Below, in pieces: positions 11,603 through 37,817 of a DNA stretch of 51,000 nt; within the stretch, counting starts at the first letter, position 1, and each line of letters begins with the position of its first letter. This stretch comes from Tubulanus polymorphus (lineage: Eukaryota; Nemertea; Palaeonemertea; Tubulaniformes; Tubulanidae), in assembly GCF_964204645.1 (NCBI RefSeq), contig NC_134035.1, positions 374,001-425,000 of the forward strand, given 5' to 3'. The notes under the pieces were generated by a model that searched no databases, was not told the DNA's origin, and saw only the letters and a list, made by a program, of their open reading frames with translations. Made by a program: the position numbers and the translations under genes.

Positions 11603-11649
11603 CCCAACCATAGAAACAATGATAGCAACTAGTAAAACAGAATACAGAG

Positions 11650-11840: not shown

Positions 11841-11869
11841 AATACATATGTACCAAGCACCTAACAGCA

Positions 11870-12220: not shown

Positions 12221-12860
12221 ACTGACTTATAAAGACTTACTGACTACTACTGAACATGACTACTGTGATTGAGTGACTGCTACAGAGTCACCAATACTAT
12301 TACTATTAATGACAAAATGACTACTACGAGTCACTGACTACAACTTAGTGACTACTATTAACCAAAAAATGACTACTACAACTGACTTATAAAGACTTAC
12401 TGACTACTACTGATCATGACTGCTGTGATTGAGTGACTGCTACAGAGTCACCAATACTATTACTATTAATAACAAAATGACTACTACGAGTCACTGACTA
12501 CAACTTAGTGACTACTACTAACCAAAAAATGACTACTACAACTGACTTATAAAGACTTACTGACTACTACTGATCATGACTACTGTGATTGAGTGACTGC
12601 TACAGAGTCACCAATACTATTACTATTAATGACAAAATAACTACTACGAGTCACTGACTACAACTTAGTGACTACTATTAACCAAAAAATGACTACTACA
12701 ACTGACTTATAAAGACTTACTGACTACTACTGATCATGACTGCTGTGATTGAGTGACTGCTACAGAGTCACCAATACTATTACTATTAATGACAAAATGA
12801 CTACTACGAGTCACTGACTACAACTTAGTGACTACTACTAACCAAAAAATGACTAGTATG
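12221..12860. repeat. 160-bp tandem repeat, four copies
   Basis: ACTGACTTATAAAGACTTAC starts at 12221, 12381, 12541 and 12701, an exact 160-bp period. Inside, shorter TGACTACTAC words repeat, so the 160-mer itself grew from a shorter unit. It lies immediately downstream of the micro-exon gene stop codon. Confidence 0.95.
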
Positions 12861-13043
12861 ACTGCGTAACTTGACTGAATGACTACACTACTACTGCTGA
12901 TTAACTGACTACCATGACCGATGAAAAAAACTGTTTCGTTGAACTGCTGATTACCCGGATACAGGAAGCAGTTGAATTGTAAATGACCCAGTGAAGCAGT
13001 GAACAAACAAGCCTACCTCGTTACTGGATCATTTACGATTCAT

Positions 13044-13511
13044 CTACTCCCTGTACCCACGCCTAAACAAGACCGATTTTAAATCATGTAAAAGAGCCTT
13101 TGATCTATCCGAAGATAGAAGCTCCTCCCACGGTCCCACGGAACCGCGAGCCACCACCCGCACTTCGGCGCGGCATCGGTCGCTGGACAGAACTCTGTCC
13201 AGCGCCGAAACCGGGGCAGCGGCCAACGGCTCCACGGGGGCAGGAGGAACCCCTCTTACCTCCTCAACCTCCACGACCATCTCCTCTTCTACCAGTTCCG
13301 GCTCCGGCTCCGGCTCCGGGACCGGTTCAAACACCGGTTCCGGTTCCGGCTCCGGCTCCGGCACCGGCACCGCCTCCACCACCTCCGGAACTACCACGAC
13401 GCCGATCTCCTCCCCTCCGCCACCGCGTCGCTCCCCCTCGGGAGGCGCCACACCACCGCGACGAACCGCCGGACGGCGTCGTCTTCGATGCCGAGCGGTG
13501 CGCGTGCCCGT
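13044..13511 (-). CDS. micro-exon gene terminal exon 41 (Pro-Glu repeat, stop)
   Basis: A 468-nt exon after CTTTTTTTTGCAG, 155 codons plus TAG. It opens TGTRTARHRRRRRPAVRRGG, has a Gly/Glu stretch, then a Pro-Glu repeat (VPEPEPEPEPEP and again PEPEPEPE), a Val/Glu segment, and a C-terminal part with two related motifs, LDRVLSSDR and WEELLSSDR, ending LFRRGYRE. The DNA is much richer in GC than the introns. The antisense frame (13100-13546, plus) is also open because of the repeat and is not a gene. Confidence 0.87.
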   Translation of the reverse strand, partial: TGTRTARHRRRRRPAVRRGGVAPPEGERRGGGGEEIGVVVVPEVVEAVPVPEPEPEPEPVFEPVPEPEPEPELVEEEMVVEVEEVRGVPPAPVEPLAAAPVSALDRVLSSDRCRAEVRVVARGSVGPWEELLSSDRSKALLHDLKSVLFRRGYRE

Positions 13512-14932
13512 CTGCAAAAAAAAGAAAACATTCATTTACTAAATGATCGGTTGAAAAGTGATTTTTTACAGAAAATTTTCGGATCAGTAACCGAGCTGAA
13601 ATAATGGAACAATTGATTACATATAAACAAAGAGATAAATCGTCGCGATCTGGGAAACAATATTCTAAAGGGTTAGAAAATAAAGCAAAAAAAAAAATGA
13701 CGATGGCTCGCTGAAAATGAAAGTATTATTTAAGAAAAGATATTATAAGTGATTCATAAAAACTGTTCGTGTGAGAGAAATTCATTCGAAATCAAAACTG
13801 AGAGAAATATAAAAAAAACAGTTAATGTTGAGATGATGCTTACCTCCCGTAACTCCCCCTCCCACAGCCGCCCGTCCACGCGACGGGACCACCTCTGTGC
13901 AAGAGGGTGCGGCTGCCGGAGGGTCCGCTGCCTAGGGCGCCTATCCGGGGAGGCAGCAGCTGGAACGGGGTCTGCCAGCTGGTCATCCAAGACAGGACCA
14001 AGGTTCAAGTGAAAGAGGTCTATGGCCTCTTTCACGTCCTCCGGACCATCCTCCACCGTCTCAATTAATATTGGTTCCACTGTAAAATATAAAATAGAAA
14101 GAAATACATTAACAATCAGGAGAAACAATTAATATATCAAGGGCGGATCCAGTCCCCCGCCTTTAATATCTTGAGGTGCCCTCGAGATATTTTAGGAATT
14201 TCTTTTTCCATTTTATAAAGAAATATCAAGTATTCCCTCATGATGGCTATCGAATAGCCTCGGGCAACAAAATTTCAAAATTTTCTGGGGAGAAACACTT
14301 AAGACCCCTTTCATCCCTTCACGAGTGCTCATGTGCCCTTCAGTAAACCTTCCAAAAATCCTGGCTCAGCCCTTGTAGATTTACAGTGAACCCAGTGTAG
14401 CTAGTAATCTCATTAATACAAAATGGTTGACTTTCCACTTGAAGCGTGATTGGTTGCCAATAATTTGTGACATCATCATGCAGCAGAATGGGGGATGCGG
14501 AAAGAAGACAATATGAGTCTCGATGAGTGACATTGATGGGCTGGTTGAGAGTTTAGGTTTGTCGGGACAGGGTTACTACAGTACAGCACAGAAGTAACTA
14601 AACATTGTATCATTGTATTGTTCAGTCACATGAACAAATAAATAGGTGTCATACCATCAGCGAACCATCACTTAACCATCAGGTGAACCCCTGCCATAAC
14701 CGCAAACCATGATTCATGATGATTTGAAAATAATTCTAAATGGTAGGCATGGAAACTTGTTAAAATTGATGGTTTATTCAGACCGCGCGGTATCACTGGT
14801 CGTATTTAAACCAAATTTGATGCGGTATGTGTTTAAAACAATGAGCGACATATGGTATATGGAGTATATTACTTCATGCCTTGCCAAACACTAATTACTT
14901 ACTCACCAAATCACTCAATTAACCTGTTCTTA

Positions 14933-15019
<87 letters not shown>

Positions 15020-18000
15020 TTTTAGTCAATATCTCACACCTGACGATGATCTCTAGGGTGAGATCGAAACGTCGTGTTCTTATGTTTTAGATTGTTTCCA
15101 TAAATAAATTCTCGATTTTAGAATTCTTTTAATTTGTAAATAAAGTTGGTTTTTATCTTATTAACCCTTTCAGTGCTGACTGATCAATACCCTATAGTGC
15201 TGGAGATAATTTGAAAATTTTGAAAAATTCCACCCAAGTGTGTTGAATAACGGGAATAGCACTACAGTGCGTCTACACCACGGCGCGGTGTATCGTTAGT
15301 TACTGATATTTCACGATGTGTCTGAAAATGGTTGACGCCGCACGAAAATAAATAGGCTTTTGTTATACAGAATTCTGTTGTAAACAGAAAGGGAACAATG
15401 ATCTCGTTTTTCGATTTCAATTATTTCTAGGATGTACCGTCAATAAGACCCGGGGCTTGATGAGGCAGTGGCTGCGTTACTGTGGCAAGCGAGGATCAGC
15501 TAGTGGTTACTCCTCAATTACCGTGCTTCAATTTCGTCGACACTTCCCGATTGAACTGTAGCCGACTCATCGCTTTATCAATACGCGAAAGTTCACGATT
15601 GGTAGAACACTTTATCCGTGTTGACGCGATGAGGAGAGAATCCCACAATGATAATAAAAAGTCCGAAAATGAAACTTCGAGATAGTAGTTTATTTCAACG
15701 TTTTGACTATATCCTAATAGTCATCTTCAGGAATAATTCCTGATTATTCCTGAAGATGACTATTAGGATATAGTCGAAACGTTGAAATAAACTACTATCT
15801 CGAAGTTTCATTTTCGGACTTTTTATTATCATTGTGGGATTCTCTCCTCAACGTGAAAGTTGCTCGAACAAAAATTCGTTTGATTATATTTGAATTTTGT
15901 AAGCGAAAATCGAGTTCGAAAATAAACTAATTTCATCGCGTATCAACGAGTGTACCAGTACCTTATTCAATGTACGTTGAGGATACTTATCTCAACACGA
16001 GCGGGGGGGGGGGGGATGAAAAATGATGTGATCAGTGGAAAGAGAGAGGAGAGAGTATAAATGCAAAAAGTTGTACTTACATCGCGTCAAAAAATTAAGT
16101 AGATACCGCGGATCCGCGGCGATATTCCGCCTTATCTCTTCGATGACTGTAAAATAAATAAATGAGAAAAATTATTAGTATTTCATTAAATCATGGACGA
16201 TCAATAGGAGTTTTACGACGTGGACAATACAGTCAAAGTCCGTTATACTGCCGCCATACTCCATCAGGAGTGACATGATTTTGGGCATTTTAACGTGCTG
16301 GATCCAGTTCCACAAATGAGTTAACTCTGAACTCATAATCTAGTTCTACATTTGCGAGAGTTAACTCTGAACTCAGAATCTAGTTCTACATTTGCGAGAG
16401 TTAACTCTGAACTCAGGATCCAGTTCCACAGATGAGTTAGATTTAACTCTGAACACAGAATCCAGTGCTACAGTTACGAGTTAAAGTTAACTCTGAACTC
16501 AGGATCCAGTTCTACAGTTACGAGTTAAAGTTAACTCTGAACTCGGGATCCAGGACCCAGTTCCACAGTTGTGAGTTACAGTTAACTAAATTAATCATCA
16601 GTTATCAACAGTAAGGCGCTCAGTAACATCTTTCATATTTCTGTTCAAATCAGAGACAAATTCAGTATTTCTTGTCATAAAATAGTAACAAATACCGAAA
16701 ATCAGTAACAGTTTGGGCAGCTCTGCTAAAAATGTCTGGCTACAAACGGACATATCTAAATAGGATCATGAATATGTGTAGACTTACCATTTTCCGTCGC
16801 ATCGACGGGGGCGGCATGGGCGGCAGCTGCATTTTCTGCCTATAATATAATAACAATCATGATGTTAAGGTTTAAGAAAACAACAAAAAAATTTGTCAAA
16901 ATTTATGCAGTTTTTACTAGCGTTTCGATAACACGAATCGTAATTAGAGAGATAATGGGGCCAATTCCCTATATGAAATCAAAAGCTGAAATAGAGCCTG
17001 CAAACAAGAGCATTTCAAGAGCTCAACTAATGCAGCGCAAAGTTTCCAAACAAACCAAGAAATCACAATTTCAAAGTTTTTTTTGATTTCTCTTTATAGT
17101 ACATTCGCCGTTTATGTATAGCAGTTCCGGTCCATTGGATAATCCTTTCATCATCGCTTTAATGAAATTTGAACAGTAGGGAACTGGCACGCCAGCTATC
17201 CCTTCAGATGGCACCGCTTAGGTATGTGAGACAATCTAATGGGACAGAAAGTGAATTTCAGAGACGTCGTCTGCGCGACAAAAAGTCGTCAAATTAGAGC
17301 ATCGATATTTTTTCGCGCATCTCTTATTGTATTAATAGTGAGCACTGGATCATATCATTACGGTTAAAAATACCTGACAATTTGATATCTCTAATTTGAG
17401 TAGTTTTCACCTGAATATATGACAGCGCAAGGGCTCTAATATCAAAAATGGTAGTTGAAAAAGAAATAACCACAACTAGAAATCATTGTGATCTTGAAAG
17501 TATTTTGATATTTCAAAGCTCTTAAAATGGAGGCACTACTCTCAAAGTCGTTATCAGGTCTGGATCGGAATACCACTAACTCAGTAAACAATTCAAACTT
17601 ACTCTACGGCGTCGGAGCCGCGGGGAGCGCCGCAATTGCGGTATCTCGTCTCTCTGGAAAAAACAAAACGATCAACATTGATTAAATCATCGAAACATTA
17701 AATGATATCTTACTGTTTGGAGAGTTCGGTATCAGAATAAGCTCGGTAGGACCAGAGAGATTCAGGGATTCTATATGTGAATAGCTCGGTAGGACCTGCG
17801 AGGTTCAGGGATTCTACATGTGAATAGCTCGGTAGGACCTGCGAGGTTCAGGGATTCTACATGTGAATAGCTCGGTAGGACCAGCGAGGTTCAGGGATTC
17901 TATATGCGAATAGCTCGGTAGGACCAGAGAGATTCAGGGATTCTATATGTGAATAGCTCGGTAGGACCTGCGAGGTTCAGGGATTCTACATGTGAATAGC

Positions 18001-21000
18001 TCGGTAGGACCTGCGAGGTTCAGGGATTCTACATGTGAATAGCTCGGTAGGACCAGCGAGGTTCAGGGATTCTATATGCGAATAGCTCGGTAGGACCAGA
18101 GAGATTCAGGGATTCTATATGTGAATAGCTCGGTAGGACCAGAGATTCAGGGATTCTACATGTGAATAGCTCGGTAGGACCAGAGATTCAGGGATTCTAT
18201 ATGTGAATAGCTCGGTAGGACCAGAGATTCAGGGATTCTATGTGAATAGCTCGGTAGGACCAGAGATTCAGGGATTCTGTATGTCTTCCTGTTCATTGAC
18301 GTGTCAGTAATGATCAACACATTCAGTGTATTTGATGCATTATAATTATTTTCACTTATAGTTCAAACTTACATCAGCTTGCGGCGGCGGCGGCGGCGTC
18401 GCAGGTGTTTCAGTCTAAAAAGTAAAAAAACGATATTTCCATTGGTTATAAAAACATGAAAATGATTCATTTCAATTTAATATAATAAAACTTGGTTCCA
18501 CAGTTCAGGACCCAGTCCCACAGTTACAGAACCTGGCTCCGCAGTTCTGGACCCAGTTCCACAGTTTGAAGTTATGATCTAGTAAAGAGTTACCGATGCT
18601 GGATCCTAGTTTTCCAGCCAATGATATTCAGTTAGTTCCGTGCGATAGTCATCAAGCCGATTGTCATAAATTTCTAGATCTCTCCCTGTCCCGCCGCCCC
18701 AGAATTAGGTATTTTTACTTTTTTTTGGTTTCGATTTTTTGGTGCCACGAGATCCAAAGCAGAAGAATTCTACACTATTTTAATTCTTTTTCCGATGCAG
18801 ATTTTGAAAACAATAAAATATCCTCATAATCATTGGTGAACCACAATGATGATAATCTACAGGACTTAAAACAGGTCAATTTGTCAGTTTTTACCATAGT
18901 TTATCATTGTTACAATGGTGGTTGTCACCTATGTTGAGGATTTACCGCTAGGGGCAACATTGAAACCCGGTCTATGAAATCGGGCCACGGTTGAGGATTT
19001 ACCCCTAGGAGAAAATGATGTGGTCTATAAAACCCTGCCCAGATTATCAATAAACTTATTTGAAATTAGCTTCACTTAAAATGATTTGACTCAAATCAAA
19101 CTTACTTTAACCGGTCCGACGCGTGCCCGTTTAGGGCTAACGGGGTCCTATAAAATAAAAACAAGTTGAAATCAACATCCAGAATTTTCAAACATATTTC
19201 TGAAGGAAATCTCAATTTCAGATTATCTTAATAATCTTTGGTGAGCCACGAAAATGATAATCTACACAACTAAAAAATGGAAATGAATAACCATGAACTG
19301 CGGGTGCAGAAACGACAACACCACTTGCAAAAAGGGCTTCAACAAACTCTCCACAATCACAAGAGGCACGTACTACCATCGCGAAAATCTTCTGCCTTTT
19401 TTTCCATGCCCAAAATAGATGTTCAAGCCACTTGGAAAGTGGTTTTTTTCGCATCGACAAACTCTCGTCGCAATCACAAATCATACTTGTCGTAAGCTTA
19501 AACTTTCACAAGATCCCGTCGGCAGGCGGACAGACGGAGAGACAGGCGGACAGACGGAGAGACAGGCACACAGACGAACGGACTGTAAAATGATTTGATG
19601 AAATTCAAACTCACCGATGCCGGTACCTCGAGCTTCCTCTTCTATAAAATAAAAAATCAACTTTAGTTTAACAACGTCAACAAAAATTCAGACATATTTC
19701 ATCTGCAGTCGTTTGTGTTCAACTGTAAATTCAATAGAAATGTTCACAATATTTACCGGCACATTCACGCACGTGTGGAATTCATTTCTCTACATAAAAA
19801 GAAAAACAAGAGCTCAATTTAGCTCAATTTAAATGAAAATCAGAATAAATAATCTTAAATCTCGCATTTTTTTAATAGCTTGGTTGACAGGGTAGACTAT
19901 TGAAATATCATTTCGGAAAATTTAAAAAAAAAGAACTCGCTCAGCGCGATAAACACAGTTTTTGAAGGAAGAGGGAACGATCGATAGGGCAATATACATA
20001 TGTCCAAAACAATGATCCTTGGAAAGTTCGAATTCTGCACACAAATGTGATCAAAAAAAAGAATAAACGCGCGGTTTTCAATTTTTTCATCATTCAAGCC
20101 GGGATTCTCATTCGGCGAAGGTGAAAAACTTTTTTGCTCGTTTTCCACTGAATTTGTTCCACGATTGGGAGTAAAAAAAATTCTACTTTTGTTTGACTTT
20201 TCTTCAAATTTCGGGAGGCGGTTCCCGTAAACCAAGCTATTTAAGAAAAAGCCTCATCTGGTGAACCATCAAAAATAGTTATTATTACGTTATAGGTTGT
20301 TACTAATGATCGGATTTATGAGAACCACAACGGTATAGTGTACATTATGGAATAAAGTTCAAGTTTTTGTCAGTAGATGGCAGGCAGGTGGTATTTATTA
20401 AGTGACTGGGTGTCAACATGTGTAACTGAAATTGTCTATTGTAAACTTACGTCAATTTGCACAATACGCGCGATTTCCGATTCCTAGAAATGTAAAGAAA
20501 AAAAATTCTGAAATCAAGTTTTGAATAACTATACCACGGATGAAAGATTCCATGATCTAAATTCTTAGTTGACCCTCGATTTAGAGACTATTTTGAGGAT
20601 AATTGAACCGATGGATGCTGCGTGACATGATTTCAATATTCTACTAACTCGGTCTGAAGAATATTCACATCGATACAAAACTGTGACCGAGCCGCAACTT
20701 TTAAACATTCTTAGTTTCACTTAAAAACATTGCTTCACACTATTATCAATACCAATTTTACGAATAATATGAACTTGGTAAGATAAATATTCACATCGAT
20801 ACAAACTGTGACCGAGTGCGACTACTTTCAAACACTCTTTAGATATAACTGGCTTCAGCTGTGATTAATTTAGGACCGAAGATACTACTCTATATAGCTT
20901 AATCAGTAGCGGATCCAAACTAGATTCCATTGTATTCCCGAATATAGTCAGAATAACATTTTTTTTTTTTTAAGTAACTCGATCCAACAGAATGTCCCAG

Positions 21001-27000: not shown

Positions 27001-30000
27001 TAATTTATGTAATCAAAGTGGCTCCCCCTAGGGTAAGCTGCACTTCCTTTGAAATCAATCTTTTTCACATTACCGGATGTTTTCGCGTCAGCGTCTTCTG
27101 GAACGAGGCCCTGAGCGACGTCCCCAACTTTAATTCGAAAACTGTTTCGATTTCCTGAAATATAAATGAAAAATTTTACATCTCCATAAATATCAATTAG
27201 AGGAAAACTGAAAGAGGTGTTTATTGACACCTTGAATGACACATGAATTGCTTGTCAACGATTGACGATATATGAATTAATCGGGGTCGAATTCTGTATT
27301 TTCCTTTCATAGGAATGAAAGTTACGAAAGCAGTGTTGTCGTATGTCAGTTACATCTTTATTCTTCAAGTTCTCCGTGTTCCTGTTCCGTCCGATGAGTC
27401 GGGGTAGTCAATCAGTGTGACTACTAGCAGGATCAATAAATATATGTTGAATTTGAATATATCGATGATTGAATTGAACTGACCGGCAAAATCTCTAGTC
27501 TCTAGCCCCGATATATCAACGAGGTAATACCGGTACACAAATGTCTATTGCCAATAAGACATATATAAAATTTATCGAACAGAAAACATACAGAATGAAA
27601 TATGTTATATTCAGAGTTGCCACTTATGTGAAGCTAAAAATCCGGAAAATAAGTCGGGGGTCTGGGGCCCTCCCCCAAAAATTTTTTTTAAATTAGAACG
27701 CCAGGAGATGCGTTCTGGCGCAATACGCGTTATAGGCCTCACTTTCATTACCGCCTATAGATCTTTTTTTCAAATAGCAATTGGCTCCGGCAAATACACC
27801 TCATATATAAACCAGAGCCAAAAAACAAACGAAGCGTCAGTCGATTTCGATCGTCGCGTCATCTTGGTTTAATCGTGTACTGCACGCGGGGTTGTTGCCA
27901 CTACGTGGCAGCACAATACGGCTTTTTCGAACCCTCTACGGAGCCGTCACGTTTTGATGTTTAGGGTCGAATCCCGAATTGATTTTATTTTTTTCGCGAT
28001 GTTTTCTTTTGTGGTTATTTGACTTCTCCCGAAAATCCGGAAATGAAATTGGATTTTTTTTAAATCCGGAATTCCGGAGAAATCCGGAGAAGTGGCAACA
28101 CTGTATATTACAAAATGGATAAGCGAACATTCACAATTGTAATTGTTATTTTGAAATGCTTCAATATTGAAATCTTCACCTGTCAAGGGATTTGAACCCA
28201 CTACGCTAAAGCTGTTCCCCGAACCCCCTGACCTCACGAGTCGTTGGAGTCGTTACTAGCCGACCAGAATCCGGTCGTACCAATCACAGCGCTTGTAACA
28301 AACCGTCAGTAGACTTATGTTGGTTTTCCCGTTAAATAGACCAATCAGCGAACGTTTTACCGAACAAGGAAGTATTTCGCAAATCGATATATGACGTCAC
28401 GCGCAACAGCGCCAGTAATGAAATCACACTTCATGAGGCCAGGGGGCTGGTGGAAGCGAGTTCGGGAGTGATACCGGACCCCTGGCAAGCGTTATATTAC
28501 AAAATGGATAAGCGAACATTCACAATTGTAACTGTTATTTTGAAATGCTCCAATATTGATGACGTAGCGCACATTGACTCACACAAAACCATAGGCGTCC
28601 CCGAGGGGTGCAGGGGTAGCGGACCCTTTTCAAGATAGCTAACTTCTCAAGTTAACATGTAATCAATGTTCAAGATTTTTCTTGCCAATTTGACTTAAGT
28701 CCTTTAACTCTAAGTGATTCATTTAGAGCCTGGAAAACGTCTCTAAAGCCTCAAATTTAAAAAAAAGTTTTTTGGGGGAGGCCCCCCAAACACCAGACAT
28801 TGTGCTTGGATGCTGGATTGATGCTTATTCGAACCCCGTATGAAAATTTCTGGGGACGCCTATGAGAACCTGTTTTAAATAACGCACAGGTATGAATGTA
28901 TATGAACATCGTTGTAATTCCGGTTTTTACGGCATCAAAAAAGTTGCGATATTTGCTTCGCTATTAACACTCCCTCCCGTTAAATAATACAGTCGAAGTA
29001 CCAAAAAATTGCATCAAAAGATTGAATCGTGAGAGCATCTCAAAAACGACATTTCAATAAATTGTCGTTAAGCCCTTGGGTTGTTTATCCTATACCTGAA
29101 ATTTAAGGAGTTAGCAAATAAACTGGTCGCTGAGCTATAATTAATTGGAGAGGCGCAGTGGCCAAGTGGACTAAGCCGCCGGTCACTGGTCTCGTCAATC
29201 CAGGGTTTATAGGTTCAAACCCTTGTGACGACAGAGTTTCTTAGTCGAATGTTTTTCTCTGGTCTCTTAAACAACGAATCCACTTATAATGCCATGTGTG
29301 GCGCTTAGCGTTTTGAGGCTCTTAAAAAGAGCTATAATTCGTGCAAATTAGATCATTTTTCAAAAAATTGTTACCAATCTTTTCTAAGGGTCAGTCATAC
29401 CCTAGAAACCTTTCAATTAACATTAAGCTCATCTCTTACAGTTTTCACTCTATGGAGCTCGAAAGTTTCTATCGATTTTCCTACTTTTATGTTACCAATG
29501 ATGGGCACTCTGAGTGTTTTTTTTTATCAAATCACCCGTGAGTGCTGAAAGAGTTATGCCCTTGGATGATATATACTGGGAGGTGGGTTGATCCGACGTG
29601 GCTCCTTAACTCATTTCCACCCAAACACGTACTCGTATGTTCGTTATCTCCCATCACATTCCTGCCAAAACCGTACTGGCAAAATGGTTGGCTTGTTTCT
29701 TAACTCAAAACCGTACCGATACGGTTGGCTTGTTTCTTAACTCAAAACCGTACCGATACGGTTTGCTTGATTCTTAACTCAAAACCGTACCGATACGGTT
29801 GGCTTGATTCTTAACTCAAAACCGTACGGATACGGTTGGCTTGGTTCTTAACTCTAACGATAGATGGCGAATTCATCGCACAACACCAGTTAGTTTAATG
29901 CCTTTTACTACTAAACAAACTCATCAGTTGTTCTATACAGTGTGCGAGTGACATCATCTATTGAAATGGGGGCTGAACACGCATGAACGAGCATATATTC

Positions 30001-33000
30001 TGCAAAATACTCCCTCTGCACTGGTTATCGCTACAGATTTTATCACTCTTAGAAGAAATGCCGCTTATTTTACATGAAAATGCAAGACCAGATCAAAGAT
30101 ATAAAACAAATTTGATGAGAAGATATCTCTTCTTGTTTTTGTTTTATGAATCTCTGAAAAACACGGAAATCCTGGCAAAACGCAGCATTGCCTGAAAAAT
30201 AGGCGTGGCAGGCAAAGAGTTACGAATGTTCTTCATTTATATTCCCGCTTTTTTTCTCATATACCCTAATTATTCACTCGCCTTAAGCCCGCCGCACCGG
30301 CATAACATTTGTTTCGCCAAAACATAAAACACACTTTTCAGAACACGTTTTGCCCACAAACAATAAAATGTTCAACGGACACGACATTTTGCTGTTCGGC
30401 GTTTTGTGTTTTGCCTTCCCCGCACACGGCATAACAAAAAACAGGCTTTAACCTCATGTACTAACACAATACAAATCATTTTCATCTCAAGTCTCAACAT
30501 ATTACAATTGATAACCAGCCAACAGAATGGATACATCTAAACTTACTTCGATGTCTGGGGACGCCAACGTGGACCTCGTTCCAGTGTGATGCTGTAAAAG
30601 AATAAAATTCATTAATACAAAGCCTAGGAATTGGTAAATCGACCATGGAAAACATCATCTTGTTTTGCAGAAAATCTACCAGGCGAAAGAAAAAAACGAG
30701 TCGGAATCTATTCAATCGTTGCGCTTATGAAAATCAGCACCAGTTTATGGGCATAAAAATGTGCGCCAAGAATTGAATTTGATGACCAATACAAATAAAC
30801 CAAAAATAGACAGGTTTGATATCTGTAACCGAACTGGATTTAGAGCCGCCTTTTTTCAGGTCAAAAACGATAAGTTACGAAGGGAATCGAACTCCGATTA
30901 AATTCTGTAACTTTGATGATAATTCTGACGAAAAACTCATAAGAATCGGTTGTTTCAAGGTAACAGAAGAATTTATACTTACTGCCTTTGCTGCTGTTTG
31001 TTTACGCTGATGATATGAAAGAAAAAAAGAGAATTCCTTTTAGTTTTGTTATTTCACGTTCACACGTTAAATACAGTAAATATAAATACATCAATAAGAG
31101 ATACATAAAATATATGCACATATATCCGTGAGCAAATGCTTCCAGATTTTACTGTGTGTGCTAATGTTATATAAAAGAAACTTGATATATAAAATAATTC
31201 TAAGTGACGGGAATTTATTTCATTGAAAGCAGGATTATTTTCATGACTTTGTTCCTGGTATGAAATATACGATGAAAATCACAAACAAATCATCGTCTGT
31301 CAGAAAGAAATAAACACCACAGAAATTCCATGATACAGAAAACTTCTCACTTACTTCTGGTGCTGTTGTTCTTGTCGTCGTCGAATTCTGTCGCAATAAA
31401 AAAAAAAGAGAATTCATGAATTTCTTGCATTATTTCATATTCAGTAGCAAACATTAAACACAGGAGATCATATTATAATTAAAACAAAAGACAAGTTTTA
31501 TATCTGTATTCGGGAAAAACCTCGATATTTCAGTATTCGTTTGTTTTAGGGTTTTATTTAAACAATATAAAGTCCATTAAACAGAAAAATTCAAACTTAC
31601 TGTATTCGTCGCTGTTTGTCTGTTCTGTTGCAATAAAAGAAAAGAGAATTCATTAATTTCTTGCATTAAAACTCTGATCTCTGTAACTTTGATATTTCTG
31701 TATTCGTTTGTTTTACAGTTTGATTCAAACGATATAGAGTCCATGAAACAGAAAAATTCAAACTTCTGTTGTCGTTGCTGCTGCTGCTGCTGCTGCAGCA
31801 GCAAACTGTCGCGATGAAAGAATAGTAATTAATTGCGTTGTTATTTCATATTGAGTAGCACACATTTAACAGAGATCATTATTAAAACGAATACCAGACA
31901 GGTTTAATATCTGGAAAAAAATTTCATCAGAGTAAACTTGTTACAATGAGAGAAAACCAAAAACACCACGCGATAAATCAGTTTGATAATTCCTGTTATC
32001 GGGATATTTGCACTTTAAAAATGACAATTGTAATTATCATCATTACTATTATCGTTGTTACTACGAGTATGATGATAATTATGAAAGACGAAATCAGTTA
32101 CAACTTGCTTAAAGAGTTATGAAGTTTCAATGACTCTCAGCGAAAATGGTAGATATCATATTCCACCGAGGAGATTAATAGAAAACTTACAAAATGAATT
32201 TCCGCTTCTACTGTTATCTAGAAAAGAGAATTAACATTCATATCTATAAAAATCATTCATTAAATGATCAATGAATCTAAGCACCAGTTTTATGGAGACC
32301 AATGTTTACTTTAATAAATCTGGGTTAACTTGATTAAAAGTGAATTCAGTTAACTGAGCACGGGTTAAACATAATACCAGTCTAACCGGCTTCAGAGGAC
32401 CAGGTTAAACAAAACAGGTTTACATAAAATGATATCATAAAATCTAAACTTACTGGCGGCGGAATTTCCTCCAGGACTTCTGGCTGTTAGAAAAGAACAA
32501 TAACATTCACATTCAGGTCAAAAACGATAAGTTATGAAGGGAATCAAACTCCGATTAAATTCTGTAATTTTGATGATAATTCTGTTGAAAAACTCATAAG
32601 AATCGGTTGTTTCAAGGTAACAGAAGAATTAATACTTACTGCCTTTGCTGCTGTTTGTTTACGCTGATGACATGAAAGAAAAAAAGAGAATTCATTTTAG
32701 TTTTGTTATTTCACGTTCACACGTTAAATACAGTAAATATAAATACATCAATAAGAGATACATAAAATATATGCACATATATCCGTGAGCAAATGCTTCC
32801 AGATTTTACTGTGTGCGCTAATGTTATATAAAAAAAACTTGATTATAAAATAATTCTAAGTGACGGGAATTTATTTCATTGAAAGCAGGATTATTTTCAT
32901 GACTTTGTTCCCGGTATGAAATATACGATGAAAATCACAAACAAATCATCGTCTGTCAGAAAGAAATAAACACGACTAGAAATTCCATGATACAGAAAAC

Positions 33001-36000
33001 TTCTCACTTACTTCTGGTGCTGTCGTTTTTGTCGTCGTCGTCGTCGTCGCTGAATTCTGTCGCAATAAAAAAAGAAGAGAATTCATGAATTTCTTGCATT
33101 ATTTCATATTCAGTAGCAAACATTAAACACAGGAGATCATATTATAATTAAAACAAGAGACAAGTTTTATATCTGTATTTGGAAAAACCCTGAAATTTCT
33201 GTATTCGTTTGTTTTAGGGTTTTATTTAAACAATATAAAGTCCATTAAACAGAAAAATTCAAACTTACTGTATTCGTCGCTGTTTGTCTGTTCTGTTGCA
33301 ATAAAAGAAAAGAGAATTCATTAATTTCTTGCATTAAAACTCTGATCTCGGTAACTTTGATATTTCTGTATTCGTTTGTTTTACAGTTTGATTCAAACGA
33401 TATAGAGTCCATGAAACAGAAAAATTCAAACTTCTGTTGTCGCTGCTGCTGCTGTTGCAGCAGCAAACTGTCGCGATGAAAGAATAGTAATTAATTGCGT
33501 TGTTATTTCATATTGAGTAGCACACATTTAACAGAGATCATTATTAAAACAAATACCAGACAGGTTTAATATCTGGAAAAAGATTTCATCAGAGTAAACT
33601 TGTTACAATGAGAGAAAACCAAAAACACCACGTGATAAATCAGTTTGATAATTCCTTTCATCGGGATATTTGCACTTAAAAAATGACAATTGTAATTATT
33701 ATCATTACTATTATCGTTGTTACTACGAGTTTGATGATAATTATGAACTATATGCGCAAATATAAGCGTATGTGTAAGTGAGCGCGCACACAAACTGAAG
33801 ACGAAATCAGTTACAACTTGCTTAAAGAGTTATGAAGTTTCAATGACTCTCAGCGAAAATGGTAGATATTATATTCCACCGAGGAGATTAATAGAAAACT
33901 TACAAAATGAATTTCCGCTTCTACTGTTATCTAGAAAAGAGAATTAACATTCATATCTATAAAAATCATTCATTAAATGATCAATGAATCTAAGCACCAG
34001 TTTTATGGAGACCAATGTTTACTTTAATAAATCTGGGTTAACTTGATTAAAAGTGAATTCAGTTAACTGAGCACGGGTTAAACATAATACCAGTCTAACC
34101 GGCTTCAGAGGACCAGGTTAAACAAAACAGGTTTACATAAAATGATATCATAAAATCTAAACTTACTGGCGGCGGAATTTCCTCCAGGACTTCTGGCTGT
34201 TAGAAAAGAACAATAACATTCACATTCAGGTCAAAAACGATAAGTTATGAAGGGAATCAAACTCCGATTAAATTCTGTAATTTTGATGATAATTCTGTTG
34301 AAAAACTCATAAGAATCGGTTGTTTCAAGGTAACAGAAGAATTAATACTTACTGCCTTTGCTGCTGTTTGTTTACGCTGATGACATGAAAGAAAAAAAGA
34401 GAATTCATTTTAGTTTTGTTATTTCGTTCACACGTTAAATACAGTAAATATAAATACATCAATAAAAGAGATACATAAAATATATGCACATATATCCGTG
34501 AGCAAATGCTTCCAGATTTTACTGTGTGCGCTAATGTTATATAAAAAAAAATTGATATATAAAATAATTCTAAGTGATGGGAATTTATTTCATTGAAAGC
34601 AGGATTATTTTCATGACTTTGTTCCCGGTATGAAATATACGATGAAAATCACAAACAAATCATCGTCTGTCAGAAAGAAATAAACACCACAGAAATTCCA
34701 TGATACAGAAAACTTCTCACTTACTTCTGGTGCTGTTGTTCTTGTCGTCGTCGAATTCTGTCGCAATAAAAAAAAAAAAGAGAATTCATGAATTTCTTGC
34801 ATTTTTTCATATTCAGTAGCAAACATTAAACACAGGAGATCATATTATAATTAAAACAAAAGACAAGTTTTATATCTGTATTCGGAAAAACCCTGAAATT
34901 TCTGTATTCGTTTGTTTTAGGGTTTTATTTAAACAATATAAAGTCCATTAAACAGAAAAATTCAAACTTACTGTATTCGTTGCTGTTTGTCTGTTCTGTT
35001 GCAATAAAAGAAAAGAGAATTCATTAATTTCTTGCATTAAAACTCTGATATCTGTAACTTTGATATTTCTGTATTCGTTTGTTTTACAGTTTGATTCAAA
35101 CGATATAGAGTCCATGAAACAGAAAAATTCAAACTTCTGTTGTCGTTGCTGCTGCTGCTGCTGCTGCAGCAGCAGCAGCAGCAGCAAACTGTCGCGATGA
35201 AAGAATAGTAATTAGTTGCATTGTTATTTCATATTGAGTGGCACACATTTAACAAAGATCATGATTAAAACGAATACCAGACAGGTTTAATATCTGGAAA
35301 AAGATTTCATCAGAGTAAACTTGTTACAATGAGAGAAAACCAAAAACACCACGCGATAAATCAGTTTGATAATTCCTTTTATCGGGATATTTGCACTTTA
35401 AAAATGACAATTGTAATTATCATCATTACTATTATCGTTATTACGAGTTTGATGATAATTATGAACTACATGCGCAAATATAAGCGTATGTGTAAGTGAG
35501 CGCGCGCACAAACTGAAGACGAAATCAGTTACAACTTGCTTAAAGAGTTATGAAGTTTCAATGACTCTCAGCGAAAATGGTAGATATCATATTCCACCGA
35601 GGAGATTAATAGAAAACTTACAAAATGAATTTCCGCTTCTACTGTTATCTAGAAAAGAGAATTAACATTCATATCTATAAAAATTATTCATTAAATGATC
35701 AATGAATCTAAGCGCCAGTTTTATGGAGACCAATGTTTACTTTAATAAATCTGGGTTAACTTGATTAAAAGTGAATTCAGTTAACTGAGCACGGGTTAAA
35801 CATAATACCAGTCTAACCGGCTTCAGAGGACCAGGTTAAACAAAACAGGTTTATATAAAATGATATCATGAAATCTAAACTTACTGGCGGCGGAATTTCC
35901 TCCAGGACTTCTGGCTGTTAGAAAAGAACAATAACATTCACATTCATTAGAATTATTTGAAAAATAAGCATCTGGGGGCGGTTGCACGTCAATCGAGACT

Positions 36001-36468
36001 TAAGTCCGAAAGTGGTCTTAAATCTTAAGACTGGTCTTAAGTTGTTAGATTGGCTATAGAACCAAGTTGGTCTTAGACTGATCTTAAGTCTAAGCCCTGA
36101 CTATGGAACGGGCCCCAGAAAATGTTTCAGTTTTGAATATTGATTGTAACATCAAATGATAATCGGTCCCGGGTTCAATTCCACATTTAATTCAATATTA
36201 TATATAATATCTGTATCCTGGATGGTTAGTGAGGTGTAGTGGACGGTATCTTTGATGGGTTGGTATGAACGCCAACACCAGGGGGAGTGGGGGCGGGGGA
36301 TTTAAATCTAGCTCCGATATATCAATGAAATAGTGCGCACTATCTCAAAAATATCGATGACGTAGTGCACATCTACTCAGGTAAGTATACTAGGTATCAA
36401 TGTAGATACAGACATATTATTGGAACAAAAAAATGAATACTTACTATCTGCTTTCGTTTTGGAGCCAT
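13044..36468 (-). CDS. micro-exon gene, 41 coding exons, 735-aa predicted protein of unknown function
   Basis: Rebuilt from splice sites: almost every exon is preceded by a pyrimidine tract ending in CAG or TAG and followed by GTAAGT (variants GTCAGT, GTAAAT, GTGAGT, GTAATG, GTAAGA, GTAAGC). Exons in transcript order are listed in the block entries below. Thirty-seven of 41 are 24-66 nt. Introns are in phase 0 except the two flanking exon 39, which are phase 1 and match each other. The joined frame is 2,208 nt with no stop. The protein begins MAPKRKQI, has no signal peptide, carries basic clusters such as RKRRRS, PKRARV and KRKLE, and is rich in Thr, Ala, Pro and Lys, which suggests a nuclear, largely disordered protein. 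I recognise no family. The symmetric exons could be skipped singly without breaking frame. Confidence 0.87.
13844..14079 (-). CDS. micro-exon gene exon 40
   Basis: A 236-nt exon between TATTTTACAG and GTAAGC. It reads EPILIETVEDGPEDVKEAID, then LFHLNLGPVLDDQLADPVPA, and ends with a basic stretch finishing RVDGRLWEGELRE. Phase 1 in, phase 0 out. It is acidic at the front and basic at the back. No domain recognised. A broken copy is at 6207-6436. Confidence 0.87.
14138..14375. mobile_element. 238-bp hAT-like MITE candidate
   Basis: The left end CAAGGGCGGATCCAG is mirrored by CTGGCTCAGCCCTTG at the right, imperfectly. The GGGCGGATC type terminus is common in short non-autonomous hAT-like elements. 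The flanking octamers TAATATAT and TAGATTTA match at only five of eight positions, so target duplication is weak. It sits in the intron upstream of exon 40. Confidence 0.45.
14935..15015. repeat. (TA)n microsatellite
   Basis: About 80 bp of pure alternating TA, abutting the retroelement-like 3' end at 15016-15120. Confidence 0.97.
15016..15120 (+). mobile_element. retroelement 3'-end fragment with hammerhead-like hairpin
   Basis: It contains CTGACGA (15040-15046), T, a 6-bp stem GATCTC/GAGATC (48-53 with 60-65), then GAAAC (15066-15070), and 30-40 bp later ATAAATAAATTC, which includes a polyadenylation-like signal. CUGANGA, stem, GAAA is the hammerhead ribozyme core order, but one extra U lies between CUGANGA and the stem. 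The same layout recurs at 15750-15780. Confidence 0.4.
15161..15335 (-). mobile_element. piggyBac-like element fragment, lacking the nested insertion
   Basis: It begins TTAACCCTTTCAGTGCTGAC and is the reverse complement of the right end of the element at 37818-38702, through GCGTCTACACC and GGTGTATCGTTAG. At the place where the 37968-38566 element is inserted in the other copy, this one reads straight through as an empty site. Confidence 0.6.
15631..15849. repeat. near-perfect palindrome, 107-bp arms, 5-bp loop
   Basis: The left arm 15631-15737 and right arm 15743-15849 are reverse complements with a single mismatch. The arms contain GTTTATTTCAACG, the CTGAAGA...GAAAC hairpin motif and the word GATAATAAAAAGTCCGAAAA. 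The mismatch replaces the G of GAAAC in the left arm. It lies in the intron between exons 39 and 40. Confidence 0.93.
16081..16839 (-). CDS. micro-exon gene exons 38-39 (phase-1 junction)
   Basis: Exon 38, 16788-16839 (52 nt), reads AENAAAAHAAPVDATEN and leaves one extra G. Exon 39, 16081-16146 (66 nt), begins with TC to complete a Val codon, reads IEEIRRNIAADPRYLLNFLTR and leaves one T. Exon 40 completes that codon with TG. This matched phase across three exons is strong evidence for the model. Exon 39 looks like a helical segment and is preserved at the same length in the pseudogene copy. Confidence 0.85.
16305..16590. repeat. about 60-bp degenerate tandem repeat
   Basis: Five units with GGATCCAGTTCCACA and GAGTTAACTCTGAACTCA. 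Related single pieces lie at 18490-18560 and 40520-40580, so this is a dispersed family. Confidence 0.8.
17603..18414 (-). CDS. micro-exon gene exons 36-37
   Basis: Exons: 18373-18414 TETPATPPPPPQAD and 17603-17653 RDEIPQLRRSPRLRRRR. Exon 36 contains a CCG run encoding five prolines. Exon 37 is very basic. Exon 37 has an intact-looking 48-nt relic at 7949-7996 (RDEIPLRRSPQLRRRR), while exon 36 has no counterpart there. The intron between them holds the 43-bp minisatellite. Confidence 0.83.
17745..18285. repeat. 43-bp minisatellite with 172-bp higher-order repeat
   Basis: Twelve or so units of AATAGCTCGGTAGGACCAGA plus GAGATTCAGGGATTCTATATGTG. Four-unit blocks starting ACCAGAGAGA at 17751 and 17923, with the next at 18095, are identical in variant order, an exact 172-bp period. 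The final four units are shorter (GAGATTC form). Located between exons 36 and 37. Confidence 0.93.
19106..19789 (-). CDS. micro-exon gene exons 33-35
   Basis: Exons: 19757-19789 RNEFHTCVNVP (GTAAAT donor); 19615-19641 KRKLEVPAS (GTGAGT donor); 19106-19147 DPVSPKRARVGPVK (GTAAGT donor). PKRARV is a good monopartite nuclear localisation candidate. DPVSP resembles QPVSPP of exon 29. A relic of exon 35 is found on the plus strand at 7247-7279. Confidence 0.8.
19515..19575. repeat. short CAGACGGAGAGACAGGCGGA repeat
   Basis: Two and a half 20-bp units in the intron between exons 34 and 35. Confidence 0.75.
20451..21627 (-). CDS. micro-exon gene exons 30-32 (acidic, proline-rich)
   Basis: Exons: 21601-21627 DINLFDDLW; 21410-21463 NDDFPEPPPPEPEAPTII; 20451-20483 ESEIARIVQID. 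Exon 30 has a GTAAAT donor. The acidic-hydrophobic NLFDDLW followed by a Pro-Glu stretch has the look of a short linear interaction motif; this is inference only. Confidence 0.78.
22236..22911 (-). CDS. micro-exon gene exons 27-29
   Basis: Exons: 22882-22911 SKQTITTTKE; 22666-22698 VTRKRRRSVDE; 22236-22271 QPVSPPKIPRDE. Donors are GTAAGT, GTCAGT and GTAAGT; all phase 0. The RKRRRS cluster is a plausible nuclear localisation signal. The intron between exons 28 and 29 contains a long GACC repeat. Confidence 0.82.
22408..22513. repeat. (GACC)n microsatellite, about 26 units
   Basis: A pure tetranucleotide run in the intron between exons 28 and 29. The TDRP-repeat reading of this run is not a protein. 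Confidence 0.97.
23171..24855 (-). CDS. micro-exon gene exons 23-26, duplicated AIPAR family
   Basis: Exons: 24805-24855 QKQPPTTTTAAAAIPAR; 24478-24513 TKPTAAAAIPAR; 23475-23522 KPTPTATAAVAAIPAR; 23171-23197 KPTAAAPKE. The first three share the ending AAIPAR and a near-identical donor context (ACGAGTAAGTTTC), and exons 24 and 25 sit in duplicated DNA 1,003 bp apart. All are phase 0. The acceptors share the TTTTATTGCA(ACA)G form, so all four exons probably descend from one. Confidence 0.85.
23370..24770. repeat. 1.0-kb tandem duplication carrying exons 24 and 25
   Basis: Sequence from GTGCAATTCCTGAGTGCTAA through the exon to GAGAAATGAACGT occurs at about 23370-23775 and 24360-24770. Exon starts differ by 1,003 bp. 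The two copies are separated by about 580 bp of unrelated DNA (23780-24360) that contains TGGGATTCGAACCCAATA near 24000, a tRNA-like B box on the minus strand. Confidence 0.85.
25387..25452 (-). CDS. micro-exon gene exon 22, polyalanine
   Basis: A 66-nt phase-0 exon between TTTTATAG and GTAAGT reading QTK, nine Ala, KTAAKT, AAAF. The Ala run is a pure GCA repeat (CAG/CTG microsatellite), so length will vary by whole codons between alleles. The Lys-Thr-Ala composition is similar to linker-histone tails. Confidence 0.83.
25682..25835 (-). CDS. micro-exon gene exons 20-21 (basic)
   Basis: Two 27-nt phase-0 exons: 25809-25835 TLKEKRKME and 25682-25708 RERKKKALE. Both have TAG/CAG acceptors with pyrimidine tracts and GTAAGT donors. 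They are strongly basic, likely part of a nuclear localisation or nucleic-acid-binding segment. The intron between them is only 100 nt. Confidence 0.82.
26587..26706 (-). CDS. micro-exon gene exon 19, folded-looking segment
   Basis: A 120-nt phase-0 exon after TTCTCTATTTACAG and before GTAAGA. It reads QVMVDLPRVHAIVVVRGPKV, then AVDNCYEYAHELRDRLVAQE. The pattern of a hydrophobic strand followed by an amphipathic helix suggests a small alpha/beta fold made with exon 18. It loosely recalls anticodon-binding-like domains, but I would not assign it on sight. The DNA contains GTAGTTCGTGGG and its inverted copy, a side effect of the coding sequence. Confidence 0.82.
27074..27154 (-). CDS. micro-exon gene exon 18
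   Basis: An 81-nt phase-0 exon after TTTATATTTCAG and before GTAATG, a weaker donor than the others. It reads EIETVFELKLGTSLRASFQK followed by TLTRKHP, which unlike most exons looks like a folded, helix-forming segment. A second frame is also open (NSFRIKVGDVAQGLVPED), but phase 0 is supported by the neighbouring exons on both sides. Confidence 0.72.
28106..28561. repeat. direct repeat around a possible SINE relic
   Basis: TATTACAAAATGGATAAGCG and following bases occur at 28106-28172 and 28494-28561. Between them, GGGATTTGAACCCACTACGC (28188-28207) reads as a tRNA B box on the minus strand, but no good A box is visible. Confidence 0.6.
28590..28864. mobile_element. 275-bp MITE candidate
   Basis: The left end CATAGGCGTCCCCGAGG is mirrored by TCTGGGGACGCCTATG at the right. 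The interior is GC-rich at the ends (GGGGGAGGCCCCCCAAACACC). A clear target duplication is not visible. It lies in the intron between exons 17 and 18. Confidence 0.6.
29143..29328 (+). mobile_element. tRNA-derived SINE with 11-bp target-site duplication
   Basis: It contains a pol III A box (TGGCCAAGTGG, 29159-29169) and B box (GGTTCAAACCC, 29212-29222) at tRNA-like spacing. The head resembles a class II (Leu/Ser-like) tRNA. The tail ends in a short TTAAAAA. The duplication GAGCTATAATT flanks it at 29132-29142 and 29329-29339. It is in intron 17, sense to the plus strand and antisense to the host gene. Confidence 0.85.
29690..29855. repeat. 37-bp repeat with internal palindrome
   Basis: About four and a half units of TTAACTCAAAACCGTACCGA plus TACGGTTGGCTTGATTC. 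ACCGTACCGATACGGT inside each unit is nearly self-complementary. Confidence 0.88.
30547..30591 (-). CDS. micro-exon gene exon 17
   Basis: A 45-nt phase-0 exon between TATTCTTTTACAG and GTAAGT, reading HHTGTRSTLASPDIE. It is the first exon after the triplicated blocks and is not itself repeated in the window. The next intron (27155-30546) is the longest of the gene and holds a SINE and other repeats. Confidence 0.82.
30857..32513 (-). CDS. micro-exon block, unit 3 (exons 12-16)
   Basis: Third copy, 1,657 bp. Exons: 32454-32483 PEVLEEIPPP; 32191-32217 ITVEAEIHF; 31601-31624 NRQTATNT; 31355-31387 NSTTTRTTAPE; 30983-31006 RKQTAAKA. It lacks about 56 bp of intron present in units 1 and 2 (the stretch with ATGCGCAAATATAAGCGTAT), which accounts for its shorter length. 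Exon sequences remain intact and spliceable. Confidence 0.87.
32514..34226 (-). CDS. micro-exon block, unit 2 (exons 7-11)
   Basis: Second copy, 1,713 bp. Exons: 34167-34196 PEVLEEIPPP; 33904-33930 ITVEAEIHF; 33269-33292 NRQTATNT; 33012-33056 NSATTTTTTKTTAPE; 32640-32663 RKQTAAKA. The 33012 exon is 45 nt where the other units have 33 nt: a run of ACG codons has expanded by four codons without breaking frame. NRQTATNT differs from unit 1 by one synonymous change (GCA to GCG). Confidence 0.87.
34227..35946 (-). CDS. micro-exon block, unit 1 (exons 2-6)
   Basis: First and longest copy (about 1,720 bp) of a tandemly triplicated block. Exons: 35885-35914 PEVLEEIPPP; 35622-35648 ITVEAEIHF; 34972-34995 NRQTATNT; 34725-34757 NSTTTRTTAPE; 34353-34376 RKQTAAKA. 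All are multiples of three, all phase 0, all with GTAAGT donors. A further exon-like segment at 35135-35188 has a damaged donor (separate entry). The block boundary is the word CAGGTCAAAAACGATAAGTT at the low-coordinate end. Confidence 0.87.
35135..35188 (-). pseudogene. exon-like Ala-rich segment with damaged donor, unit 1 copy
   Basis: It is preceded by CATCGCGACAG and reads F, then Ala codons (GCT then GCA runs), then TTTE, 54 nt in phase 0. The donor should be GTAAGTTTGA as in the neighbouring exons, but four bases are missing, leaving GTTTGA after GAA. Copies at 33433-33468 (36 nt) and 31764-31805 (42 nt) share the same loss. Either the exon is dead or a weak GTTTGA donor is used at low level. 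Confidence 0.6.
35965..36125. mobile_element. dispersed MITE-like repeat (GGTTGCAC... CTTAAG)
   Basis: It runs from GGGGGCGGTTGCACGTCAAT to CTATGGAACGGGCCCC, with internal CTTAAGACTGGTCTTAAG-type inverted repeats. It looks like a short non-autonomous element common in invertebrate genomes; the family name is not certain. Lies between exons 1 and 2. Confidence 0.5.
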
Positions 36469-36472
36469 ATTT
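36445..36472 (-). CDS. micro-exon gene exon 1 (start codon)
   Basis: The start ATG is at 36468-36466 in the context AAATATGG, which matches a good Kozak context (A at -3, G at +4). It reads MAPKRKQI, a lysine/arginine-rich start that looks like a nuclear localisation signal, then GTAAGT. TTTTGTTTTCTAG stands only 4 nt upstream of the ATG and looks like a 3' splice site, so either a 5' untranslated exon lies further upstream or the message is trans-spliced. I found no promoter I could defend. Confidence 0.75.
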
Positions 36473-36646
36473 CTAGAAAACAAAATAGAGACATCATAAA
36501 CATTTGAGCGACGACACTTATCATCATTTGAAAATTGGCATATCGATTGTAAACAAATCCGCCAGATGACAGATCTGTAATCAGTCAGTGCTATGGAGGG
36601 TAGCCCTTGGGTTTTAATAGAAACAATTTCAGAGACAACACATTAA

Positions 36647-36905
36647 CAACTTTCGTCAACGAATTCCCTTGAGAATCATCTGTATCAACCAGTTACAGAT
36701 GATTCTCAAGGGAATTCGCTGACGAAAGTTGCACTTGGTAAATACACAAAATATAAATGAATTACCCAAATATTTCCTTGATTTTAGGAAAATTTCCGAA
36801 ATTTATTTTTGGAAATATTTCCAAACTAGGAATTATCATTTCAAAATTCCAAAGTTTTTCCCAATTTCCGCGTTCTGTGGGAACCATGAGTATGCCTGTT
36901 TATCT
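36647..36905. repeat. 38-bp-arm palindrome plus dispersed repeat
   Basis: Arms 36647-36684 and 36694-36731 are reverse complements with one mismatch and a 9-bp loop (CAACTTTCGTCAACGAATTC in the left arm). The adjoining 36732-36905 is related to 8700-8890. It lies upstream of exon 1, so it may be near the promoter of the micro-exon gene. Confidence 0.85.
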
Positions 36906-37382
36906 AAGTGCTGAGGTGGAATTTTTTAAATCTTACATCTCCAGCACTTTCGAGTATTGATTAGTTCAATGAAATGCTTAACGCACCTTAAAATTTCAAC
37001 AAAATATTTTGTTTAGGGTTTCATTCAGTAAACCATCAGGCCATACATGCAGTTCAACAGTTTTGGACGCAATGGGATACCGGCAAGGCTAATGAATGAA
37101 TAAGACCCTAAAGATATTTTCTGTTGAAGACATTTTGAGGGCACCAACGATTCCCTACCATTTTTCATTACCAGTTGAAATTTGGTTTATTTCAGAATGT
37201 TTTAAATCTAAAAAACTGATCAAGAAATGTGGAACTGGGGGGTCCAGAACGGTGGAACTGGATCCTGATAGCCGCTTTAAATGAAATCTTTTTGACATTT
37301 TTGTTGAAGAAATTAAATTTGTGTAGGGTGCCAAAAATCCCAGATCAGTTATCCAAAGTAATACACACTAAATTTTTTATTT

Positions 37383-37813: not shown

Positions 37814-37817
37814 TTAA

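Follow-up and report, generated by a model that had tools for sequence, protein, structure and literature searches.

The window analysed here, that is, the whole stretch of 51,000 nucleotides (bases 374001-425000 of contig C11 in a genome of 267.8 Mb and 77 contigs), carries on its minus strand a chain of 44 coding exons, which was rebuilt directly from the window sequence. The chain runs from position 36468 to position 13044 and joins into 2334 nt, which make up 777 codons and one terminal stop. Its exons, and the features that accompany them, are as follows (window positions).

36445..36468, minus strand, exon 1, MAPKRKQI, with the start codon; region present in nine genomic places
35885..35914, minus strand, exon 2, PEVLEEIPPP, array unit 1; 26 genomic matches
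35622..35648, minus strand, exon 3, ITVEAEIHF
35135..35188, minus strand, exon 4, alanine exon, donor GTTTGA; one-base shift in copy B
34972..34995, minus strand, exon 5, NRQTATNT
34725..34757, minus strand, exon 6, NSTTTRTTAPE
34353..34376, minus strand, exon 7, RKQTAAKA
34167..34196, minus strand, exon 8, PEVLEEIPPP, array unit 2
33904..33930, minus strand, exon 9, ITVEAEIHF
33432..33467, minus strand, exon 10, alanine exon, donor GTTTGA
33269..33292, minus strand, exon 11, NRQTATNT
33012..33056, minus strand, exon 12, NSATTTTTTKTTAPE
32640..32663, minus strand, exon 13, RKQTAAKA
32454..32483, minus strand, exon 14, PEVLEEIPPP, array unit 3
32191..32217, minus strand, exon 15, ITVEAEIHF
31764..31805, minus strand, exon 16, alanine exon, donor GTTTGA; unmatched in unit 3 of copy C at 70% query coverage
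31601..31624, minus strand, exon 17, NRQTATNT
31355..31387, minus strand, exon 18, NSTTTRTTAPE
30983..31006, minus strand, exon 19, RKQTAAKA
30547..30591, minus strand, exon 20, HHTGTRSTLASPDIE
27074..27154, minus strand, exon 21, 81 nt; fused to exon 22 without an intron at loci L038 and L040
26587..26706, minus strand, exon 22, 120 nt, with a variable 5' third and near-invariant 3' two thirds; open and flanked by AG/GT in 11 of 11 matches of at least 92%
26607..26670, minus strand, hairpin inside exon 22, -37.8 kcal/mol, z -7.5
25809..25835, minus strand, exon 23, TLKEKRKME
25682..25708, minus strand, exon 24, RERKKKALE
25387..25449, minus strand, exon 25, alanine/lysine exon; 63 nt in copy A, 45-57 nt in copies B-E
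24805..24852, minus strand, exon 26, IPAR at its end
24478..24513, minus strand, exon 27, IPAR at its end; absent from the chains of copies C, D and E
23475..23522, minus strand, exon 28, IPAR at its end
23171..23197, minus strand, exon 29, KPTAAAPKE
22882..22911, minus strand, exon 30, SKQTITTTKE
22666..22698, minus strand, exon 31, VTRKRRRSVDE, basic cluster
22236..22271, minus strand, exon 32, QPVSPPKIPRDE
21601..21627, minus strand, exon 33, DINLFDDLW
21410..21463, minus strand, exon 34, NDDFPEPPPPEPEAPTII
20451..20483, minus strand, exon 35, ESEIARIVQID
19757..19789, minus strand, exon 36, RNEFHTCVNVP
19615..19641, minus strand, exon 37, KRKLEVPAS
19106..19147, minus strand, exon 38, DPVSPKRARVGPVK, basic cluster
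18373..18414, minus strand, exon 39, TETPATPPPPPQAD
17603..17653, minus strand, exon 40, RDEIPQLRRSPRLRRRR; nine differences from copies C, D and E, eight of the nine synonymous (by eye)
16788..16839, minus strand, exon 41, 52 nt, ending in phase 1
16081..16146, minus strand, exon 42, 66 nt, phase 1-1
13844..14079, minus strand, exon 43, 236 nt; 100% identical in seven of nine copies
13044..13511, minus strand, exon 44, 468 nt including the stop codon; a 461-nt probe has nine full-length matches at 97-100%
41353..41600, minus strand, putative 5' UTR exon and promoter region, with a donor GTAAGT at 41352
3061..51000, no strand, window portion of the duplicated block, about 48 kb in copies A, B, D and E; left end not reached

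Forty of the 44 exons are 24-66 nt long and the other four measure 81 nt or more; 39 are both shorter than 70 nt and divisible by three, and up to 20 of these follow each other in an unbroken run. The introns (100-3392 nt, median 348 nt) begin with GT and end with AG in all 43 cases, the donor being GTAAGT in 33 of them and the acceptor CAG in 30. All junctions are in phase 0 (41 of 43), save for two phase-1 junctions which flank exon 42 and compensate each other. Exons 2-19 constitute three units of the same six exons, and the three alanine exons (35188-35135, 33467-33432 and 31805-31764) have the weak donor GTTTGA. An earlier, sequence-only reading of this DNA had arrived at 41 exons and 735 codons, which comes close to the model without the three alanine exons (41 exons, 733 codons), whereas the count is 44 if those exons are used. 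Its other structural statements, namely that the exons join without a stop, that nearly all of them are symmetric phase-0 multiples of three, that the only two phase-1 junctions balance each other, and that this is a micro-exon gene out of reach of ORF calling, are all borne out by the model.

An acceptor TAG is found 4 nt upstream of the ATG of exon 1, which suggests a spliced 5' UTR. The transcript would then start upstream, near 41.4 kb, with a non-coding first exon spliced to exon 1; the region 40950-41650 is kept at 98-100% in nine genomic places. We infer that recognition of exons as small as 24-66 nt would be enabled by the strong donors together with the shortness of the introns.

A blind search for splice chains, which relied on dynamic programming with generic splice matrices, phase consistency and the absence of stops, and involved no hand choice, was applied to the same region. 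At a penalty of 12, the best chain on the minus strand of 13000-36600 scored 141.8 and comprised 37 exons, 33 of them in phase 0-0, as compared to 14.1 (3 exons) on the plus strand, to 10.6-47.1 in four flanking combinations of stretch and strand (the top value belonging to the repeat-rich minus strand of 1-13000), and to a mean of 22.8 and a maximum of 49.9 in 100 dinucleotide shuffles. The respective scores were 224.0 versus a shuffle maximum of 101.2 at a penalty of 10, and 181.1 versus 72.7 at a penalty of 11. With the score that far above the shuffles and the opposite strand, a chance origin of the chain is rejected, as the sequence-only reading had maintained. The blind chain recovered exactly 29 of the 44 model exons at penalty 12, 30 at penalty 10 and 31 at penalty 11; support for the weaker exons therefore comes from comparing the copies with each other rather than from the scan. 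When the whole window was scanned with looser settings, the score was 452.1, as compared to 201.9 for the plus strand and 191.8-281.7 for 20 shuffles; that chain extended beyond the gene and contained 97 exons, 31 of which belong to the 44-exon model.

What escaped the sequence-only reading is that the gene occurs nine times, in near-identical copies embedded in large interspersed duplications, and these also made a comparative test of coding possible. The 461-nt probe from the last exon has, apart from its nine full-length matches, matches to five pieces of a diverged copy on contig C8. Exon 43 shows nine matches at the same places, accompanied by additional hits that are diverged or incomplete. 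The conserved stretch at 41 kb is represented by nine long matches at 98-100% and two partial ones, and exon 22 has eleven matches of at least 92%, two of them in rearranged places. Six copies are located on contig C11, two on C9 and one on C8, in both orientations. The window represents copy A; for copies B, C, D and E, 50 kb were taken around each, and the remaining four copies are known by their marker exons. Counted via exon 2, the array has three units in every copy but the one on C8, which has two. The block is shared from about 3 kb to the right end of the window, mostly at 95-100% outside the minisatellites of the left edge; the match of copy C ends near 42.9 kb, and those of copies D and E continue for some 375 bp beyond the right end of the window and then diverge. 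Judged by these extents, the duplicated block that contains the gene is interspersed, measures about 48 kb or more, and has edges that differ between copies; all nine blocks were located through the gene. The left edge of the window (1-5600) comprises minisatellites of 40-300 bp as well as a 28-bp satellite, the latter at 1-1079. A partial copy of exons 43, 40 and 42, scrambled and inverted, lies on the plus strand at 6187-8324. Its exon-43 part is interrupted by a stop; the parts from exons 40 and 42 are retained in all four of the other copies read. In the right flank of copy D (locus L023 on C11), there is an open frame of about 300 aa with hydrophobic segments that look receptor-like by eye, and without a Pfam match at E 0.01.

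When copies A-E were compared, exons were assigned by position, and those that matched under 70% of the query were omitted from the chain, which gave 44, 44, 42, 43 and 43 exons in copies A, B, C, D and E, respectively, with the frame kept in four copies. All 216 exon instances are bordered by AG and GT, with the outer edges of the two terminal exons, 1 and 44, as the sole exceptions. Lengths indivisible by three are confined to exons 41 and 43, which are balanced, and to one 55-nt alanine exon in copy B. The chain reads through from ATG to stop in four copies out of five; in copy B, a 1-nt insertion in the first alanine exon shifts the chain, resulting in 27 stops unless this exon is skipped, which its weak donor would allow. 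Of the indels that separate copy A from the other copies, 37 of the 43 in exons have a length divisible by three (the other 6 do not), as against 27 of the 216 in introns (Fisher p 2.5e-21); many of the exon indels fall in trinucleotide runs, where steps of three are to be expected in any case. The variant sites divide into 23 synonymous and 14 non-synonymous ones in the frame of the model (p 1.8e-6), as against 7:29 and 7:28 in the two other frames, and into 11:10 (p 0.006) if exons 22 and 40 are left out; this test covers 22 of the 44 exons in best-match alignments, the array exons and exons 25-28 being set aside. Pairwise pN/pS values from the same alignments range from 0.08 to 0.54 (0.17-0.22 for A versus C, D and E; 0.34 for A versus B). 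Relative to A, the density of substitutions in copies C, D and E amounts to 1.25-1.4% in introns and to 2.0-2.5% in exons. This surplus in exons runs opposite to simple purifying selection; in copy B the density is 0.7% in exons and introns alike. The excess is partly due to the clusters in exons 22 and 40 and to array exons with uncertain best-match assignment, and it may reflect the exchange of exon-sized tracts with diverged paralogues.

Exons 21 and 22 deserve separate consideration. In a diverged paralogue on C8 (loci L038 and L040), exon 21 runs directly into exon 22, the intron being absent and the joint free of gaps. Hence both exons are contiguous in the coding sequence, as modelled, and either the intron was lost in the C8 paralogue or it was gained in the window copy. 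The L038 and L040 copies are degenerate, with a 1-nt gap within exon 21 in L040. The other junction-spanning matches (14 of 16) were discarded as low-complexity matches of alanine runs, which are uninformative. At L040 and L038 (about 13.993-14.000 Mb of C8), and also at C8:13952486-13955042, exons 21 and 22 together, as well as exon 43, recur as short tandem copies, which is amplification at the level of exons. The RNA of exon 22 folds with -55.3 kcal/mol (z -6.0), owing to a near-perfect hairpin of 64 nt. Across the 11 genomic copies of at least 92% identity, the last 81 nt of this exon vary at one site and the first 39 nt at 12 sites. Such constancy exceeds the demand of protein coding alone; it could have its source in the youth of the copies combined with gene conversion. 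The hairpin is partly broken in the degenerate copies on C8. Searches of Rfam with the window, five loci and the exon-22 region gave no match, and a tRNA search found none. The three alanine exons are runs of GCT and GCA, and their lengths vary between copies by threes and once, in copy B, by a single base; exon 4 folds as a palindrome (z -5.9).

The predicted product of about 85 kDa is largely of low complexity and rich in A, P, E, T and R (15.8, 11.1, 10.7, 10.3 and 9.7 percent, respectively). It contains basic and acidic residues in almost equal number (113 and 112), eight basic clusters and 3 cysteines in 777 residues. Its most hydrophobic stretch is an alanine run that starts at residue 29, and the predicted N-terminus, MAPKRKQIPEVLEEIPPP, is not signal-peptide-like as judged by hydropathy only, in line with the absence of a signal peptide claimed earlier. 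The joined protein and three pieces of it matched nothing in Pfam at E up to 1, and a 655-aa version, with two of the three array units omitted, had no match at E 0.001 among 5.8 billion predicted proteins (7987 candidates scored). Exons 42-43 drew 7 candidates from the predicted proteins, none of them a relative, and the best match of exons 20-24 in a sequence search of the PDB had E 0.33. The earlier claim that no described family includes this protein thus holds for Pfam and for the 5.8 billion proteins, the latter being weak evidence of novelty since that collection may hold few spliced animal proteins; nor did the titles and abstract openings of open-licence PMC articles, searched without a species term, include one that describes the gene. 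Two weak matches of the exon 44 ORF (E 1e-4 and 4e-3; 7984 candidates scored) were dismissed as due to a low-complexity PEPEPE run, and similar matches below the cut-off were seen in Pfam and NCBIfam. The last 71 residues, when modelled alone by AlphaFold, gave a mean pLDDT of 60, and this model was set aside. Most likely, the product would be a nuclear or chromatin-bound disordered protein; with no Pfam family and no homologue, the nuclear role, which the sequence-only reading had likewise favoured, is read from composition only.

Taken together, the above data are best understood if the locus represents a real, functional, multi-copy protein-coding gene, to which we would assign a probability of about 0.88. 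The encoded proteins would form a lineage-specific, disordered, probably nuclear family that has spread by segmental duplication and is apparently kept by selection. One could surmise, instead, that the family was active until recently and is now decaying, so that the frames of these young duplicates of a formerly functional gene are open only through recency. Indeed, the copies differ little (by 0.7-2.5% substitutions), one chain in five has a frameshift, and degenerate pieces are present both at 6187-8324 of the window and on C8. Decay would not explain, however, why the synonymous excess is confined to one frame, why exon indels come in multiples of three with four of five chains open, and why exon 43 is identical in seven of nine copies; on the first three grounds, the view of these copies as mere pseudogenes is rejected, and ongoing decay appears very unlikely. 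It is quite unlikely, too, that the whole block constitutes a mobile element of very large size, or a selfish duplicon, which carries the gene as its cargo or driver, in which case the gene may still be real. The occurrence of nine interspersed copies on three contigs and in both orientations would suit such an element, as would the fragment of a Penelope-like element at the right edge of the window, but a Pfam scan of ten window ORFs, weak as it is for having missed that very fragment, encountered neither a transposase nor an integrase, and the ends of the block are not fixed, given that copy C ends near 42.9 kb and copies D and E run past 51 kb.

A functional gene of this build invites comparison with the micro-exon genes (MEGs) of flatworms. 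The definition in the accessible parts of PMC7653826 is structural, with at least seven exons, and the gene falls under it by its 39 short exons divisible by three and their run of 20. The MEGs of Schistosoma and tapeworms, as portrayed in the accessible parts of PMC10526429 and PMC7653826, similarly have many exons of less than 70 nt, mostly multiples of three, and long introns; they are also multi-gene, hard to annotate, and retain the frame upon exon skipping. The likeness in structure could mean that the DNA comes from a flatworm and that the gene is a genuine flatworm MEG whose secretory exon was missed. This is very unlikely, considering that the MEG proteins described in the accessible parts of PMC10526429 are short (the longest has 189 residues) and bear a constant N-terminal signal peptide, whereas the product predicted here has 777 aa, basic clusters and, by hydropathy only, no signal-peptide-like stretch at its start. 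The four exons of at least 81 nt and the near-identical copies in large blocks are further points of difference, and the "secreted variable proteins" invoked by the sequence-only reading are a property of schistosome MEGs which this gene does not share.

In aphids, according to the accessible parts of PMC9168663, bicycle genes have some 17 exons on average and megacycle genes more than 100 microexons in repeated modules. These, too, form a large family with many small internal exons of one phase and without homology to described proteins. However, the bicycle exons are nearly all in phase 2, as opposed to phase 0 here, and many bicycle proteins possess secretion signals and CYC motifs, whereas the predicted protein has no CYC motif and no signal by hydropathy. 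Thus, going by the accessible parts of these sources, we are faced with a gene that is structurally a micro-exon gene in the sense of PMC7653826 and by its protein neither a flatworm MEG nor a bicycle gene. The primate core duplicon NPIP/LCR16a, as presented in the accessible parts of PMC7419210, resembles it in being a lineage-specific family within large interspersed segmental duplications that retains an open frame while the exon structure changes (here, nine places and four open chains out of five); the proteins are unrelated, and those parts of the article make no mention of micro-exons. Tentatively, and with rather low likelihood, the non-secreted nuclear micro-exon gene might be the core of an invertebrate duplicon, with its symmetric exons serving as evolvable modules and exon 22 being doubly constrained, by the protein and by the 64-nt hairpin; that hairpin may then take part in RNA processing or duplication.

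As nearly all exons are in phase 0-0 and divisible by three, single exons and whole six-exon units can be duplicated, lost or skipped in frame. Runs of small phase-0 exons that encode short repeats and are tuned by exon number are known from the PEVK region of titin and from collagen genes. Pfam showed no sequence relation of either to the protein considered here, and titin and collagen are not known to be nuclear. In the case of a functional gene family, the gain and loss of exons would tune the length of the Ala/Thr/Pro linkers between the conserved parts (exons 20-24, 33-37 and 42-44). The copies would multiply by segmental duplication and exchange sequence, so that the nine stay alike, and purifying selection would hold the frame and the conserved blocks. 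The animal genes built of many symmetric micro-exons, that is, flatworm MEGs and aphid bicycle genes, encode secreted proteins of parasites and plant feeders, as far as the accessible parts of the articles cited above go. Should the reading as a functional gene be true, a 44-exon gene of nuclear type in nine near-identical copies would imply that this architecture is not tied to secretion. It would also offer a natural experiment, in which exons gained, lost or altered in length can be followed among paralogues of one genome whose background hardly varies, and it would exemplify a class of genes that ORF calling does not see and that the comparison of copies can reveal without RNA.

The ORFs at 50139-50838 were considered as a gene of the block and rejected, since they are the end of a Penelope-like element. 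This end (50139-51000) is also found at loci L043 and L044, with RVT_1 recognized in L044 and GIY-YIG just below the Pfam cut-off in the window piece. No fewer than 44 matches to the element were counted, with 40 of 133 candidates scored; many of the matches are less than 70 kb from a contig start and 4-7 kb apart, and L043 contains 61 CCCTAA. These matches possibly make up an array of endonuclease-bearing telomeric retroelements.
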